Shown here one piece after another: positions 10,944-26,573 of a DNA stretch of 36,871 nucleotides (the stretch's first letter is position 1; each line of letters begins with the position of its first letter). The DNA comes from an uncultured Mycoplasmatota bacterium (GTDB lineage Bacteria > Bacillota_I > Bacilli_A > RF39 > UBA660). Under the pieces are notes generated by a model that searched no databases, was not told where the DNA came from, and worked only from the letters and a program-made list of their open reading frames with translations. The DNA lies in contig USNG01000013.1 in assembly GCA_900556025.1 (NCBI GenBank), forward strand, positions 1 to 36,871, given 5' to 3'. A program made the translations under genes and the position numbers.

Positions 10944-11375
10944 CTAAAAACAATCTAATTCATTTATCATATTATAATTTTCAGAAACATATTCTCCATC
11001 ACAATAAAAATACACAGCATGATTATAAACATCTTTCTTCTTTAAATAAACAAATCCATCACATGACACATTATTATATTTTACATCAACTATACTTTTA
11101 TATCTCTTCAAAGCATCAAAAGTAACACATAAATAATCATTATCAGAATGTTTTAAAACATATTCAGTCATAAAAGCACTCTTATATTTTGAATTAAGTT
11201 CATTAACATAATAAGTCTCAATAAAATTAACACTAGCAAATTTAACATTCTTTTCATTAGTCTTAATCTCTTCATTTAATTTAGTTTCTTCATTACTAGC
11301 AAAATTAGGATTTAAAATAATAACTATAAGAGCTATTATAATCACTACAATAAATATTGCTACACCATTTCTCAT
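10944..11375 (-). CDS. Pilin-like single-pass membrane protein without a prepilin signal
   Basis: Protein of 143 residues with an N-terminal membrane anchor (about 5-23) and an extracellular domain. From about residue 85 the C-terminal half follows the same pattern as the two prepilins at 14163-15769: CVTFDALKRYKSIVDVKY, then SCDGFVYLKKK, then YFYCDGEY, against CDGVVVWDSE...YLVCGSDY and CKGIIVYDGK...YLYCGDDG. The spacing of the two Cys and the preceding VK[YF] is preserved, suggesting the same disulfide loop. It lacks the GFTLIE prepilin cleavage site, so it should stay membrane-anchored. The ATG overlaps the ppa stop (TAATG) with GAGG upstream, so it is coupled to ppa. The pilin-like assignment is my inference from this comparison. 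Confidence 0.7.
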   Translation of the reverse strand: MRNGVAIFIVVIIIALIVIILNPNFASNEETKLNEEIKTNEKNVKFASVNFIETYYVNELNSKYKSAFMTEYVLKHSDNDYLCVTFDALKRYKSIVDVKYNNVSCDGFVYLKKKDVYNHAVYFYCDGEYVSENYNMINELDCF

Positions 11376-13002: not shown

Positions 13003-14144
13003 AAACAATTGGTATAATCGCAGAATATAATCCATTTCATAATGGACACTTATATCAAATAAACAAAATAAAAGAAAAATACCCAGATTCAATAATAATA
13101 GTATGCCTAACTACATCGTTTACTCAAAGAGGAGAAATATCTATACTAAACAAATGGGAAAAAACACAAATAGCATTACAAAATAACGTAGATATAGTTA
13201 TAGAATTACCATATATTTATGCAGTACAAAGTAGTGATATATTTGCTGAATCATCACTTAAATTATTAAATGAATTAAAAATAGAAGAATTATGCTTTGG
13301 AAGTGAAAATAATAACTTAGGCAATTTAATAAAATGTGCAAAAACAGAGCTGTATAACAAAGAATTTGATATCAAAGTAAAAGAATACATGCAAGAAGGA
13401 ATTAGTTATCCTACTGCTTTAAATCGTACCTTAAAAGGCTTAATAAACATAGAAATATTAGAGCCAAACGATTTACTAGCACTAAGCTACTTAAAATCAA
13501 TATACAAAAATAACTACAAGATAAAACCATTCATAATAAAAAGAACAAATAACTATCATGATTTAGAATCAAACGAAAACATCATCTCAGCATCAAACAT
13601 AAGAAACAAAATAAAAAATGATATAGATATAAAAAATAATGTACCACTCGCAACATATCAAATACTAAAAAACAAAACAATTCAAAATAAATACTTCAAT
13701 TATTTAAAATACAAAATAATTTCAGAACAAAACCTAGATAAATATGTAGATGTAGAAGAAGGAATAAATAATAGAATCAAAAAATATATTTACTCTTCTT
13801 CATCACTAGAAGAATTAATTCAAAATATAAAAACAAAAAGATACACATACAATAAAATATCAAGAATGTTAAACCACATCCTTTGTTCATTCACAAAAGA
13901 TGAAAATAGTTTATTTAAAACACCAGAATATATCAGAATATTGGGCTTTTCAAACAATGGTCAAAAACACTTAAGCAGTATTAAAAGTACATTAAATCTA
14001 CCTATATTAAATGTTTATGATACAACTAAGTACAAATCATTAGAAATAGAAAAAAGAGTAACTGACATCTACTCTATTATTTATGAAGATATAACTTTAA
14101 AAGAAATTCAAAATAAACCAATACAAATAAAAACGGAAAACTAA
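12999..14144 (+). CDS. tmcAL: tRNA(Met) cytidine acetate ligase TmcAL
   Basis: Nucleotidyltransferase-fold enzyme (381 residues) that in Bacillus uses ATP and acetate to make N4-acetylcytidine at the wobble position of elongator tRNA-Met. The N-terminus IGIIAEYNPFHNGHLYQI carries the HxGH-type ATP site; TTSFTQRGEISILNKWEK and IELPYIYAVQSSDIFA are family-conserved. The C-terminal half is the Lys/Asn-rich tRNA-binding part. It overlaps the HAD gene by 4 nt and ends in a strong bidirectional terminator. In Bacillus tmcAL (ylbM) lies next to yceD and rpmF; here it sits close to rpmF in the opposite orientation. Confidence 0.95.
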   Translation: MKTIGIIAEYNPFHNGHLYQINKIKEKYPDSIIIVCLTTSFTQRGEISILNKWEKTQIALQNNVDIVIELPYIYAVQSSDIFAESSLKLLNELKIEELCFGSENNNLGNLIKCAKTELYNKEFDIKVKEYMQEGISYPTALNRTLKGLINIEILEPNDLLALSYLKSIYKNNYKIKPFIIKRTNNYHDLESNENIISASNIRNKIKNDIDIKNNVPLATYQILKNKTIQNKYFNYLKYKIISEQNLDKYVDVEEGINNRIKKYIYSSSSLEELIQNIKTKRYTYNKISRMLNHILCSFTKDENSLFKTPEYIRILGFSNNGQKHLSSIKSTLNLPILNVYDTTKYKSLEIEKRVTDIYSIIYEDITLKEIQNKPIQIKTEN

Positions 14145-14155
14145 TTTTCCGTTTT
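14130..14155. terminator. Bidirectional terminator between tmcAL and the pilin genes
   Basis: An 11-bp stem, AAAACGGAAAA (14130-14140) with TTTTCCGTTTT (14145-14155), has loop CTAA, which holds the tmcAL stop. It can end both the plus-strand tmcAL transcript and the minus-strand pilin transcript. Confidence 0.85.
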
Positions 14156-14162
14156 ATTATAC

Positions 14163-14585
14163 TTAACATCCAGGATATTCACTATCAATATTAACAGTAC
14201 TATCAGTAGCATAGTCACTTCCACATACTAAATATGTTTTTTTAGTTCTAGCTTCTGAATCCCAAACTACTACTCCATCACAAGGTGAATTTTTAAATTT
14301 AACTTCATCTATAAGACTTAAGTTTTTTAATACTGAAAGTTTAACATAAGAAATTGTATCACTCTTAGTACATACTCCACAAGTACGATTACCAATTGGA
14401 TGAATACAATAGTCTTCATTATATAAGTTAGCAGCATCAGCTATAGTATTCTCTTGTGTAATCATAGCTTGTTCTTGACTAGTTTTTAAATATTTTAACA
14501 CATTAGGTACAGCTATCAAAGAAAGTATTCCAAGAATAGCTACTACAGCCAATATTTCAATTAAAGTAAATCCTTCTTTTTTCAT
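14163..14585 (-). CDS. Type IV prepilin-like protein
   Basis: Short prepilin (about 141 residues) with leader MKKEG and the N-methylation motif GFTLIE followed by a 20-residue hydrophobic helix (EILAVVAILGILSLIAVPNV). This is the substrate form for a prepilin peptidase and would assemble into a type IV pilus or competence-type pseudopilus. The extracellular domain has Cys pairs and the module CDGVVVWDSE...YLVCGSDY, ending in a Cys. Starts at 14591 and 14585 are both possible (AGGA 5 or 11 nt upstream); the later gives the shorter leader. It follows the longer prepilin gene with overlapping stop and start. The first 30 codons are nearly identical in DNA to that gene. No PilB, PilC or PilD gene is in the window. 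Confidence 0.88.
   Translation of the reverse strand: MKKEGFTLIEILAVVAILGILSLIAVPNVLKYLKTSQEQAMITQENTIADAANLYNEDYCIHPIGNRTCGVCTKSDTISYVKLSVLKNLSLIDEVKFKNSPCDGVVVWDSEARTKKTYLVCGSDYATDSTVNIDSEYPGC
14488..14575 (-). repeat. 88-bp perfect direct repeat, copy 1 (pilin N-terminal coding part)
   Basis: Identical base for base to 15669-15756, including all synonymous sites. It encodes the prepilin cleavage motif and hydrophobic helix. The flanks diverge at once, which points to recent duplication or gene conversion limited to this segment. Confidence 0.9.
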
Positions 14586-14593
14586 AAACATCA

Positions 14594-15769
14594 CTATCCT
14601 AAATTAGAAATTATATTTGTTATTAATGTTTTAGCATTTGTAGCATTACTACTAGTAGTCAAATTAGTACTATCTAATTTTAAAGAACTTGTAGAATAAC
14701 TACTATTTTCACTTATCTCAGCAATATGATTTAAAGCTTTAAAGAATGTAGTATATTCAATATTATATTCTTCTCTCTTCAAATCAGTAGCATTAATAGC
14801 ATTATTAGCATCTTGTAACATATAAGTTAATATGTTTCTAACTATAGTTTTTACACAATCTTCATCAGTACATTCAATAAAACCAGCTAACTCACCAGAC
14901 TCTAATATATTAGCATCAATACTAACTATATTTAAGTCCATTTTTCTTTTATAACTTTCAGCATATTTTAAATAATTACTATTATAACTAGTACAACTAA
15001 TACTCTCAAGATTACTATCACTTAAATCATAAATCATATAATCTTTATATGTTGAACTATCACTTAAAATAGAAACATTATTAAAGTGAGTTGTGGTTCT
15101 AGTAGCATCTATTTCTTGTATTAATTGAACGATCTCATCGTTAATTAGTTTCTTATCATCACTAGAATTAGTTGGGTTACTACAACTATTTAATAATTCA
15201 CTTATACGGCTAGATATTTGAACAACTTGTTCTAAACCACCCTTTGCAGTTTGCAACATAGATACCCTATCTTCCCATGTAGAAGAAGCTTCACTCTTAT
15301 AATCTGCAGATCCTATACCACATCTAGAATACATAGCTGGATTTAAACTACTATCAGTTATATAATCGTAATTTCCATCATCCCCACAATATAAATAAGT
15401 TTTTCCTTTTGAATTCTTACCATCATAAACAATGATACCTTTACATTCTTTTCCTTTATATTTAACTGTTTCAGCATAGCTATTAGATGTATTTTGTAAA
15501 TCACTTAAACAAATATATTTTTCACTACTTTCTTCATTATTTTCATAACTATCAGGACACATACCATCATGTAATTTAGTTGAAGAACAATAATCAGTTA
15601 TATATAAATTAGCTGCGTCAAGTATTGTATTTTCTTGAGTAATCATTGCTCTTTTTCTACTTTCGTTCAAATATTTTAACACATTAGGTACAGCTATCAA
15701 AGAAAGTATTCCAAGAATAGCTACTACAGCCAATATTTCAATTAAAGTAAATCCTTTTTTATTCTTCAT
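14594..15769 (-). CDS. Type IV prepilin fused to a flagellin-like domain
   Basis: Protein of 391 residues. Residues 1-150 are a prepilin: leader MKNKKG, cleavage motif GFTLIE, hydrophobic helix and a Cys-containing domain (CKGIIVYDGK...YLYCGDDG) ending at the Cys where the neighbouring pilin stops. Residues about 160-236 then match the flagellin N-terminal D1 helices: WEDRVSMLQTAKGGLEQ against QDGISLIQTAEGALTE of Bacillus Hag, then SRISEL, INDEIVQLIQEID and TTHFNNVSIL against the flagellin IQDEIxxLxxEID and TEFNxxxLL pattern. Residues about 315-385 may be the matching C-terminal helix pair (ANNAIN...), less certain. A strong GGAGG precedes the ATG and a promoter lies at 15793-15822. It starts the two-gene pilin unit. 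The flagellin-like identity is my reading of the motif order and is convincing but untested. Confidence 0.82.
   Translation of the reverse strand: MKNKKGFTLIEILAVVAILGILSLIAVPNVLKYLNESRKRAMITQENTILDAANLYITDYCSSTKLHDGMCPDSYENNEESSEKYICLSDLQNTSNSYAETVKYKGKECKGIIVYDGKNSKGKTYLYCGDDGNYDYITDSSLNPAMYSRCGIGSADYKSEASSTWEDRVSMLQTAKGGLEQVVQISSRISELLNSCSNPTNSSDDKKLINDEIVQLIQEIDATRTTTHFNNVSILSDSSTYKDYMIYDLSDSNLESISCTSYNSNYLKYAESYKRKMDLNIVSIDANILESGELAGFIECTDEDCVKTIVRNILTYMLQDANNAINATDLKREEYNIEYTTFFKALNHIAEISENSSYSTSSLKLDSTNLTTSSNATNAKTLITNIISNLG
15669..15756 (-). repeat. 88-bp perfect direct repeat, copy 2
   Basis: The same 88 bases as 14488-14575, in the same orientation and 1181 bp away, within the first codons of the longer prepilin gene. 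Confidence 0.9.
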
Positions 15770-15792
15770 ATATCCCTCCTACCTTCTACATT

Positions 15793-23160: not shown

Positions 23161-23189
23161 AAATAAAAAGATAGATTTCTCTATCTTTT
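23161..23189 (-). terminator. Terminator of the Gly-rich repeat protein gene
   Basis: AAAAGATAGA (23189-23180 on the minus strand) pairs with TCTATCTTTT (23175-23166) over a 4-nt loop, then TATTT. The stop codon (23181-23183) is inside the stem. Confidence 0.85.
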
Positions 23190-25310
23190 GTTACGTATAA
23201 TTAGAATTCCACTTCCACCTCTAGCATTGACTCCACCGCCGCCGCCTCGGTTATCTGTTCCTGCTTGTCCTGAAGCGCCACCACCTCCAGCTGAAGCAGC
23301 TCCATTTCCAGAACCTCCTCCAGAGTAAGCATATGCAGCACCATTGTAACAGTATGATGTAGTTCCTTCTCCAAATTCACATGTTGTTCTTCCTTGACCA
23401 GCACCATTAGCATTAGCACCATAAGCAGCACCTGGATAGTAATAATAGCTAAATCCCCAGCTAACACATCCTGCTTGATCCCATCTTTCAGTACAAACCC
23501 AATCTCTACCAGTTAGTCCGCCGCCTGAACCTCCATTGCCCGCGTATCCTCCAGAACCTCCATTAGCAGCAAAGTTTTGATTGTTTCCGCTCATATAGGT
23601 CTGTTCGCCATTACCATTAGCACCGCCAAGGCCAATTCTTATTGTATAGGCAGCATCTTTAACAAGTGTTTGGGCTCTATAAGTATTTGTGTATCCTCCA
23701 CCGCCTGCGTTTCCACCTCCGCCACCTACGACGAATATGTCAGTATATGTATTGTCATAAAGGTAAAGAATTCCGCTCGTAATAAACTTAACTTTCCAAT
23801 TATTTTGATCGCCTTCTATGATAAACTGACCAGAATAATCTCCTAAAACTTTATTACCAACTTTGATTTCATTTACTTTCATCTTACGGATAATAACTGT
23901 TCCAGTACCACCAGGGGCATTTACGCCACCACCGCCACCTCGGCCATTAGTACCAGCAACATTTAAAGCACCACCACCTCCAGCAGTACCAGCTCCGTTC
24001 CCAGAACCTCCTCCAGAGTAAGCGTATCCATCTCCACTATAGCATCCGTAAATAGATCCTTCATTAAATTCACAAGTGACTTGTCCTGACCAAGGACCAT
24101 TATTAGAATAATATTGTCCTGTTCCATTTCCATTGTTTCCATAAGCAGCTCCGCCGCCGTTATAGTTTACAAATCCCCAGCTAACACATCCAGCTTGATC
24201 CCATCTTTCAGTACATTCCCAATTGTTGTAATTATATCCACCACCAGAACCACCTGTTCCTCTATGACCAGCACTGCCTCCATTAGCATAATAAGTAACA
24301 CTATTACTCTTAACATAGGACTGTTCACCACCAGAGCCTATAGAACCACCTCTACCAATTTTTATTGAATATGTAACACCTTTAGGAAAGCTTTGACGAC
24401 TATATGTAGTAGCATAACCACCAGCACCGCCATTTCCTCCACCTCCACCAACGACAAACACATCAGTTTTAGTAGTATCAACAAATTTTAAATCTCCATC
24501 AGTTTTAAATGTGATTTTCCAATTAGAAGAGTCACCACTTACATCAAAGTTTCCACTATATGTAGCAATAACTTTTCCATCAACAATTATATCTCTAGGT
24601 ATTTTACTTCTCATAATAACTACACCAGTGTAACCATTTTGAAAACAATTTCCACCTGCTCCAGAGTTATTTCCTAATAAACCAGTTCCATTTGTTCCAG
24701 GACCAGCATAAGCCATTCCAAGATAATTAGCATCACATCCCCCACCACCTGGAGCATATGCAGCACTATTTCCATCATAACATCCAGAAATTGTACCATT
24801 ATCAAATTCACATGTAGATTGACCAGACCATGGCTTACCAGATTGACTATATTGGTTCACACCATAGCTATTACCATTACCACCATGAGTAGTAACCCAT
24901 CCACCTACACACCAATTATCATTCCATTCTTGATTTGGATCACCTTTGCTACAAGTAGTAGAACCCTTATAACCACCATTGTTGCTTCCAGTTCCACCAT
25001 TACCATTTGTTCCGCCATCTGCATAGTAAACACTTGCATTATCATAATACGATTTACCACCATGATTAGCACTAGTTCCAGCAGCACCTATTTGAATATG
25101 TTTTTTAACACCAGCTTCCATCTTTATATTTTTAAACGTAGAAGCATAACCGCCGCCACCTCCGTTGTAGCCACCACCGCCGACAACGAAAAGATCAGTA
25201 TTAACATCAACATTAAAGGTTAAGTCACCACTAGTTAAATATCTAACTTTCCAATTCTTATATCCATTATCTAATACTTCGCAATCACCAGTATAAGTAA
25301 ATACATATGG
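23181..25310 (-). repeat. Three tandem Gly-rich protein repeats (about 235 codons each)
   Basis: Coding repeats: unit 1 about 24609-25310, unit 2 about 23883-24596, unit 3 about 23184-23876. Units 2 and 3 still match in DNA, e.g. over the WDQAGCVSWGF codons near 23455-23490 and 24175-24210, 720 bp apart. Unit 3 lacks the PWSGQ segment found in units 1 and 2. Bases are visibly richer in G and C here than in neighbouring genes because of Gly, Ala and Pro codons. Confidence 0.8.
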
Positions 25311-26573
25311 TTCACTACCTCTACTAATATTAGCACACATAAAACTATTTGAAATAGTATCATAGTCAATTACAGTAGATCTATATTGAGCATATAAAGT
25401 AATAACACTACCATCAGTACTACTTAAATTTTTAATTATTTGCTCATCAGTATAAGATTTTCCAGTATTATCGCTTTTAGTATTCCAATTATTAAAGAGA
25501 AAACCAGGCTTAGCATACTTATTTTTAGCCAATTTAACTTCTTTATCATATTTAACTTTTATATCACTAATTTTGCTACCAGTTCCTCCATTAGCATCAA
25601 ATTTAATAGTATACTCAATTGGTTTCCATCTTGCATATAACACTAAATCAGCAGTAGCTAAAACTACTTCATTTGATTCAATTTTAATTCCTTCTGTTTT
25701 ACTTGTATACCAACCTTCAAAAAAATATCCAACTCTACTAGTAGTAGGCAACACTGGATAATTATCTAAATATTTTAAATCATATGATTCACTAACTTCT
25801 TCACCACCATTAGCATCAAAAGTCAATTTAATATTTTTAAGATTATATAGTATTCTACATGTAATATCAGTAGTAACATTCTCAAAAGTTAAAACATCAT
25901 CAACAATCTTACATCCACATGTCTCTATAGTTTCTTTTTGATTAATAACATAACCGCTTTTAACATTTAAATTAAATATAGCATTTTTAGAAAACTCAAC
26001 AACTTGTGGATTCTTACTTGTTGTTGTAATAGGTTCAATCTCAATTTCATTATGCAAGTCATCATAATCTTTATGTTTACTTACAACTATTTTAACTAAA
26101 TTATTTTTAGAAATAACCCAAGGATTAGTATAAGTACCTTTTCCAGTAATTCTAGTTCCATTTCTAACATATTCAGTTACTCTAACATTACTATCACTAG
26201 ACTCACTTAAACTATTAACTCCTTTAAAATTAATAATATTTCTATTATTTCCATTTTTAGTCATTGTCCAATAACCATTAAGTTCATATAACCATGAACT
26301 TTCATTATTAGATTCTCTTTTAGACATTAAAAACTCTACTGAATTTAAAAGTCCTCCAGTCTTAAATCCGTCACTACTAGAATCAAAAACATTATATGAT
26401 GAATTTAATCCATATAATGAACTATCATTAATTATATATTTTGAATAATCGCTTTCAAATCTATTCTCCATATAACTATTAACTACATTTCTAGTATCAT
26501 TAAAATTTTTAGCACTAACAAAACAAGGAATTGAGACTAATAATATAATAATAAATTTAATTTTATTTTTCAT
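23181..26573 (-). CDS. Secreted repeat protein with InlB-type repeats and three Gly-rich domains
   Basis: Secreted protein of 1130 residues. A signal peptide (KNKIKFIIILLVSIPCFVSA) is followed by a 200-residue unique region. Two InlB B-type (Listeria-Bacteroides) repeats lie at about 248-316 and 322-398, each starting with FDANGG and including FFEGWYTS or LFNNWNT. Three related Gly-rich units of about 235 residues follow (about 422-655, 660-897, 900-1130). Each opens with a NWKVxF/TSGxL strand and (D)xFVVGGGG and closes with VIIR or LIIR. Units 2 and 3 share CTERWDQAGCVSWGF, and all three have TCEF...CY, probably disulfides. No LPXTG, choline-binding or C-terminal anchor is seen. AGGTGAT precedes the ATG; it is a single-gene unit. 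A surface or adhesive role is inferred from the architecture. Confidence 0.85.
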   Translation of the reverse strand: MKNKIKFIIILLVSIPCFVSAKNFNDTRNVVNSYMENRFESDYSKYIINDSSLYGLNSSYNVFDSSSDGFKTGGLLNSVEFLMSKRESNNESSWLYELNGYWTMTKNGNNRNIINFKGVNSLSESSDSNVRVTEYVRNGTRITGKGTYTNPWVISKNNLVKIVVSKHKDYDDLHNEIEIEPITTTSKNPQVVEFSKNAIFNLNVKSGYVINQKETIETCGCKIVDDVLTFENVTTDITCRILYNLKNIKLTFDANGGEEVSESYDLKYLDNYPVLPTTSRVGYFFEGWYTSKTEGIKIESNEVVLATADLVLYARWKPIEYTIKFDANGGTGSKISDIKVKYDKEVKLAKNKYAKPGFLFNNWNTKSDNTGKSYTDEQIIKNLSSTDGSVITLYAQYRSTVIDYDTISNSFMCANISRGSEPYVFTYTGDCEVLDNGYKNWKVRYLTSGDLTFNVDVNTDLFVVGGGGYNGGGGGYASTFKNIKMEAGVKKHIQIGAAGTSANHGGKSYYDNASVYYADGGTNGNGGTGSNNGGYKGSTTCSKGDPNQEWNDNWCVGGWVTTHGGNGNSYGVNQYSQSGKPWSGQSTCEFDNGTISGCYDGNSAAYAPGGGGCDANYLGMAYAGPGTNGTGLLGNNSGAGGNCFQNGYTGVVIMRSKIPRDIIVDGKVIATYSGNFDVSGDSSNWKITFKTDGDLKFVDTTKTDVFVVGGGGGNGGAGGYATTYSRQSFPKGVTYSIKIGRGGSIGSGGEQSYVKSNSVTYYANGGSAGHRGTGGSGGGYNYNNWECTERWDQAGCVSWGFVNYNGGGAAYGNNGNGTGQYYSNNGPWSGQVTCEFNEGSIYGCYSGDGYAYSGGGSGNGAGTAGGGGALNVAGTNGRGGGGGVNAPGGTGTVIIRKMKVNEIKVGNKVLGDYSGQFIIEGDQNNWKVKFITSGILYLYDNTYTDIFVVGGGGGNAGGGGYTNTYRAQTLVKDAAYTIRIGLGGANGNGEQTYMSGNNQNFAANGGSGGYAGNGGSGGGLTGRDWVCTERWDQAGCVSWGFSYYYYPGAAYGANANGAGQGRTTCEFGEGTTSYCYNGAAYAYSGGGSGNGAASAGGGGASGQAGTDNRGGGGGVNARGGSGILIIRNKR

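Follow-up and report, generated by a model that had tools for sequence, protein, structure and literature searches.

Modular pilins are type IV pilus subunits in which a pilin module carries a grafted functional module that is presented by the filament, a class for which passages of the survey by Raynaud et al. count 264 architectures (PMC8179133). Among the closest described systems are PilB and PilC of Streptococcus sanguinis, the latter being characterised, in part of the text of PMC9934059, as a lectin that is stabilised by the small pilin PilA. Here, we describe a protein of 391 amino acids (aa) that belongs to this known class and whose grafted module is a D1 unit of flagellin. It is encoded at 14594..15769 on the minus strand of a stretch of 36,871 nucleotides (nt; hereafter the window, meaning the whole of this DNA) from an uncultured Mycoplasmatota bacterium (RF39; UBA660; contig USNG01000013.1 of GCA_900556025.1). 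An earlier note, made from the letters of the window, had given the coordinates of this open reading frame correctly, although not its strand, and had read the product as a prepilin fused to a bundle of the flagellin D1 type, a reading that is upheld by matches to N_methyl and Flagellin_N and by a predicted D1 fold.

As in PilB and PilC, a short pilin module with a prepilin signal precedes a non-pilus domain, and other pilin genes of the system lie alongside; unlike in those proteins, the module is a flagellin D1 rather than a vWA or lectin domain. The word "flagellin" has 0 occurrences in the main texts of PMC8179133 and PMC9934059, although a flagellin architecture could appear in Dataset S1 of the former. 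The unit resembles the D1 of bacterial flagellins (9hpz by profile, 1io1 by fold) in having ND1a, ND1b, and CD1 in the same order and fold, whereas the protein lacks D0 at either end as well as D2/D3, possesses conserved cysteines, extra C-terminal helices, and a prepilin signal, and has as its nearest genus one in which neither FlhA nor Flagellin_N was found (18 genomes). Its pilin fusion also distinguishes it from 2zbi and 3k8v, which we take to be the polysaccharide-binding surface flagellin homologue of Sphingomonas sp. A1 and for which we know of no such fusion. Silent flagellins, as presented in passages of PMC11285207 citing Clasen et al., likewise keep the nD1 motif for TLR5 without an activating cD0, whereas the present protein has no D0 at all and bears the unit on a pilin. 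As far as we have searched the literature, with subscription papers and preprints lying outside that search, a flagellin D1 module on a pilin, its tandem duplication, and its presence in a lineage seemingly without flagella have not been described.

The pilin module

The first 26 residues (15692..15769; all window coordinates below refer to the minus strand) comprise a class III (prepilin) signal and the start of alpha-1, with the leader MKNKKG followed by FTLIE. They match PF07963 (E 1.4e-8) and TIGR02532, both over cut-off, and display a leader ending in Gly, F1, E5, and a hydrophobic alpha-1. The whole pilin module, as delimited by an AlphaFold2 model and the cysteine columns, covers residues 1-152 (15314..15769). 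In the model it consists of a long helix (9-60) and beta strands (83-137), a part that is less surely modelled, the rows of the structure comparison spanning only 153-300; its six cysteines occupy columns of the family alignment without substitution in the rows reaching them. A module from outside type IV pilus biology sits C-terminal of the pilin part (Flagellin_N match at 159-240, D1 fold), which is the arrangement that characterises a modular pilin.

The flagellin D1 unit

Pfam Flagellin_N matches residues 159-240 with an E-value of 2.1e-12 and a score of 47.7 bits (cut-off 26.6), far beyond chance, and the flagellin-like words quoted in the earlier note are present in the order given there. 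The note had tied its reading to a Flagellin_N match within residues 155-391, which was obtained, whereas the companion search that it proposed, for Flagellin_C (PF00700), returned no match in the 391-aa protein at E up to 10. Because the alignment to Flagellin_N sets in only at position 58 of the 139 in the profile and Flagellin_C has no match, D0 is, judging from the sequence, absent at both ends of the unit. Lacking D0, the unit should resemble the monomeric F41 fragment and not a filament former, and its polymerisation in the manner of a flagellum is not expected. That the gene is a true flagellin gene was considered and rejected, given the missing D0 and the absence of FlhA and Flagellin_N from the 18 genomes of the nearest genus.

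The D1 core spans residues 153-300 (14870..15313), and Pfam, structure comparison, and profile match together find all three of its elements in order: the equivalents of ND1a (residues 162-196; 15182..15286) and ND1b (203-226; 15092..15163), both placed by the predicted model and structure comparison, and that of CD1 (266-298; 14876..14974), whose assignment refers to 440-453 of Salmonella and its kin. The comparison with flagellin D1 that the note had called for thus finds the fold kept; its suggestion that residues 315-385 are the paired C-terminal helices was misplaced, CD1 lying at 266-298 and the stretch 303-388 holding additional helices. These belong to an extra helical piece past CD1 (residues 301-391, 14597..14869; helices 303-325, 329-353, and 373-388 in the AlphaFold2 model), which lies outside canonical D1 and has an equivalent in both units of long relatives, the two copies there matching each other with an hhalign probability of 96%. 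Compared by hhalign as a possible further copy of ND1, the extra helices gave at best 22% (E 1.9e-4), in a single pairing, and the C-terminal copy gave almost no match.

In the PDB, 92 distinct sequences were matched at E up to 10; among the best 60 of these 92, 57 are flagellins or their homologues (best E 1.2e-9), and the other three, two geopilins and one fimbrial protein, are pilins aligned with the pilin part. The best PDB match of the family profile is a Roseburia hominis flagellin (9hpz, an entry that does not state which flagellin gene of this species it represents), aligned from ND1 to CD1 with the first unit of long relatives (E 3.8e-29). By fold, the closest solved structure to the predicted model is the Salmonella F41 fragment 1io1. 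Foldseek E-values were weak: for the window protein the best was 4.7e-4, with two matches at or below 0.001, and the top 34 rows were flagellins; for the relative P0009 the best was 1.1e-2, with none at or below 0.001, and the top 16 rows were flagellins.

Family members and unit architecture

The protein has relatives with the same fusion, which the earlier note had proposed to look for; the family shares it, whereas it was not found in the related genomes scanned. One record, P0001, is likewise 391 aa long and 99% identical to the window protein, differing at five residues, and represents another strain; its cluster has 10 members (longest contig 248,093). Most relatives carry two D1 units, whereas the window protein has the second-type unit alone and P0082 the first-type unit alone, and the unit missing from the window form ends at unit boundaries. 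Two further members, P0010 and P0015, seem to combine a pilin head and a D1 body from different paralogues (compared with P0006, P0080, and P0011), representing either recombination between paralogues or assembly chimeras.

The gene pair and its surroundings

The ATG of the 391-aa prepilin gene is preceded by a Shine-Dalgarno-like AGGAGG (15775..15780), and its stop codon is overlapped by the start of a partner prepilin gene (14163..14594; 143 aa as called; N_methyl E 9.8e-7). A terminator-like hairpin follows the partner (14130..14155), in a hairpin scan that found 2 against 0.2 in shuffles, one hairpin being counted on both strands. Given the overlap and this hairpin, the two genes look like one short operon, and a pattern scan finds prepilin signals in the window in exactly these two. 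From a common point just past the leader, both genes are identical at 84/84 nt of the alpha-1 stretch and then diverge, a longer stretch of the heads being identical at 131/150 nt; this shared DNA suggests that the alpha-1 segment was recently duplicated or gene-converted between them. A promoter scan was uninformative (17 sites against 14.2 in shuffles), and base composition gives no clear signal of a foreign origin of the D1 part, the G+C fraction being 0.282 in D1, 0.267 in the pilin part, 0.236 in the last part, and 0.26 in the window.

Nothing else in the window points to flagella, as the earlier note had remarked: Pfam finds no other flagellar family among its 36 open reading frames of at least 100 aa. 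The "Flg_new" label in the reading frame at 23181-26573 was rejected as a flagellar domain, being the Listeria-Bacteroides repeat; this 1130-aa protein begins with a signal-like sequence and contains, besides the Listeria-Bacteroides repeats, Gly-rich repeats, of which three were counted by eye. At 10944-11375 lies a 143-aa headless pilin-like protein, devoid of a prepilin signal, that matches the pilin globular domain of the family (E 2.2e-7 within the window). It occupies the slot of a prepilin that adjoins a holin-like gene before lgt in 10/10 fetched loci of relatives showing lgt. In 14/20 fetched loci polA is present, with tmcAL downstream of it in 13 of those 14; a conserved prepilin slot between polA and tmcAL was rejected, since prepilins, identified by pattern, stand there in only 1/14 polA loci (L123).

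Pilus machinery and flagellar markers in related genomes

The nearest genus, represented by 18 genomes, was used as a proxy for the genome from which the window comes. Among eight genomes reached through loci, the nearest is G003 (PolA 74%). A PolA match was found in 17/18 genomes of the genus: full-length at 73-77% identity in 14 and at 64% in one, in two pieces at 71-72% in another, and as a 111-residue fragment at 89% in G299. That fragment (G299:C13:1-333) contains one internal TAG; judged by it, G299 may be the closest relative of the window among the genomes compared, and neither the D1 fusion (among the matches listed) nor Flagellin_N was found there. T2SSE is present in 18/18 genomes (full-length in 17, G303 having a shorter type only), as are T2SSF and Peptidase_A24 (18/18 each), whereas FlhA and Flagellin_N were found in 0/18, the searches for these two each giving matches in 4/14 control genomes. 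We infer that the window's own genome is like the genus in both its pilus machinery and its flagellar markers.

The family profile gave 6 to 45 matches per genome in these 18 genomes, nearly all by the pilin part among the matches listed; the 45 matches of G003, in about 1.1 Mb, represent a large dispersed set of prepilins. Ten large proteins chosen from fetched loci of the genus were scanned with Pfam. N_methyl was found in 9/10, and the other domains over cut-off were DUF285 (two proteins), Dockerin, Glug, and LRR_5 with FNIP, along with the Listeria-Bacteroides repeat in the one protein without N_methyl; FGE-sulfatase (two) and UPF0552 fell below their cut-offs, and Flagellin_N was found in none of the ten. 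The lineage thus grafts varied modules onto pilin heads, of which the flagellin D1 is one.

Proposed role and alternative explanations

We consider it likely that the protein functions as a modular type IV pilin, with a short pilin module anchoring it in the pilus and one D1 rod (153-300) plus the extra helical piece directed outward. According to this model, which draws on the architecture for export, cleavage, insertion, and display, prepilin peptidase would remove MKNKKG, after which the pilus ATPase and platform would build the subunit into the pilus. It would probably take a minor or tip position there, alongside the partner pilin whose gene follows immediately downstream. The D1 rod may be held outward as a ligand-binding, adhesin-like module, and would be displayed and not polymerised into a flagellum because the D0 parts that build the flagellar tube are gone.

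Several observations weigh against this model. Entry of the subunit into the pilus is predicted from its architecture, neither window prepilin adjoins pilus machinery genes, and that machinery is inferred from a genus whose genomes, of unstated completeness, share 73-77% (14 genomes) or 64% (one genome) identity with the window in full-length PolA. The AlphaFold2 model used here is the best of five (mean predicted local distance difference test score, pLDDT, of 78.5, against 62.6-66.8 for the other four), and pLDDT is below 50 in alpha-1 (residues 1-36) and in the linker 153-160, which makes the predicted pilin-to-D1 geometry tentative. Moreover, profile A2 (the D1 unit plus extra helices, 7 rows) did not find the fusion in sets of 291, 385, and 243 genomes, taken from family and order groups that overlap, and a D1 profile at E 1e-3 matched 0 of 80 loci (80 kept out of 276); with no fusion in the genomes and loci scanned, it is either rare or its lineage is poorly represented among the genomes searched. 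The sole A2 matches, three in total, were in G129 and G161. Two were read, one being an ordinary flagellin truncated where its contig stops and the other beginning as a flagellin, and since both contigs are shorter than 9 kb, they are taken for bin contamination; the third is L086. In G161, locus L085 (8.1-kb contig, maybe bin contamination) has a flagellin N-terminus running into a HEMTH stretch, which is presumably flagellinolysin-like.

Among the alternatives, the least improbable, though still unlikely, is that the D1 units only make the subunit longer, as a stiff spacer or stalk with no specific ligand. Helical rods would suit such a role, as would the varying copy number of the units, but the protein ends with its D1 unit and carries nothing beyond it, and R188 and E212, whose counterparts lie at the surface in the TLR5 complex of flagellin, are well kept.

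Slightly less probable still, and drawn from sequence comparison, is the notion that the D1 unit acts as a D0-less flagellin mimic on the pilus of a non-flagellated gut bacterium, binding TLR5 weakly or silently as a tolerance signal, decoy, or host-cell anchor. The flagellin hot spot for TLR5 is given in a passage of PMC5247705 as R89/R90, L93/L94, and E114; in an ungapped alignment to 3v47, with structure numbering, R188, L192, and E212 of the window protein (within 15134..15208) align with R90, L94, and E114 of Salmonella flagellin. These residues are well kept across the D1 units of the family. In the set reduced at 90% identity, R, L, and E occur in 14/17, 16/17, and 15/17 members for the second-type unit, which is that of the window, and in 13/18, 18/18, and 17/18 for the first-type unit; without reduction, the letters occur in 28, 30, and 29 of 31 rows (second type) and in 17, 28, and 25 of 28 rows (first type). 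Among 81 positions of the second-type unit ranked by conservation, L192 is tied at 5-10, E212 is 11th, and R188 is tied at 12-17. According to a passage of PMC5247705, the flagellins of Helicobacter and Campylobacter, which evade TLR5, carry T and D where R89 and E114 would stand, and the best PDB profile match comes from R. hominis, whose FlaB is named in part of PMC11285207 as a key example of silent flagellins, retaining nD1 binding and lacking the cD0 site. However, E114 also supports R89 inside flagellin, as a passage of PMC5247705 indicates, and the residues may accordingly be conserved for structural reasons. Another residue replaces R in 3/17 and 5/18 reduced members, the same helix is variable at positions 181 and 184, the protein has no D0 to contribute to activation, and the gut setting is assumed. 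A D0-less D1 on a pilus may, as a hypothesis, be viewed as the extreme of the silent-flagellin kind.

Very improbable is a new filament in which neighbouring D1 units would form a flagellin-like sheath along the pilus by packing side by side, even though the D1 fold is kept and lateral packing of D1 domains occurs in flagella. The unit has no D0, its match to Flagellin_N starting well inside the profile, and modular pilins are considered in passages of PMC8179133 to be likely tip exposed, with the filament body not excluded; the new filament design envisaged in the earlier note is therefore not supported, the architecture falling under published modular pilins. That the gene is a decaying pseudogene or an artefact of assembly or frame, as might be suspected from a form one unit shorter than most relatives, can be dismissed as having a negligible chance, because P0001 carries the same form with five residue differences, the frame is open, all cysteine columns are kept, and the missing unit ends at unit boundaries.

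Implications

A single family of subunits here unites two bacterial filament systems that are unrelated, and the display modules of pili gain a domain through which flagellin is recognised by a host receptor, which raises the question of whether a D0-less D1 on a pilus binds TLR5 or another ligand. As a doubtful but encompassing scenario, non-flagellated, probably gut bacteria would have taken from a Clostridia-type flagellin the part that TLR5 recognises and, after losing D0 and forming a tandem duplicate of the remainder, would carry it on type IV pili to engage the host flagellin receptor or the flagella of neighbours. Pili may thus show a piece of flagellin without any flagellum, the nearest sequenced kin being without the two flagellar marker families, and counts of Flagellin_N in metagenomes may partly report bacteria that have no flagella.
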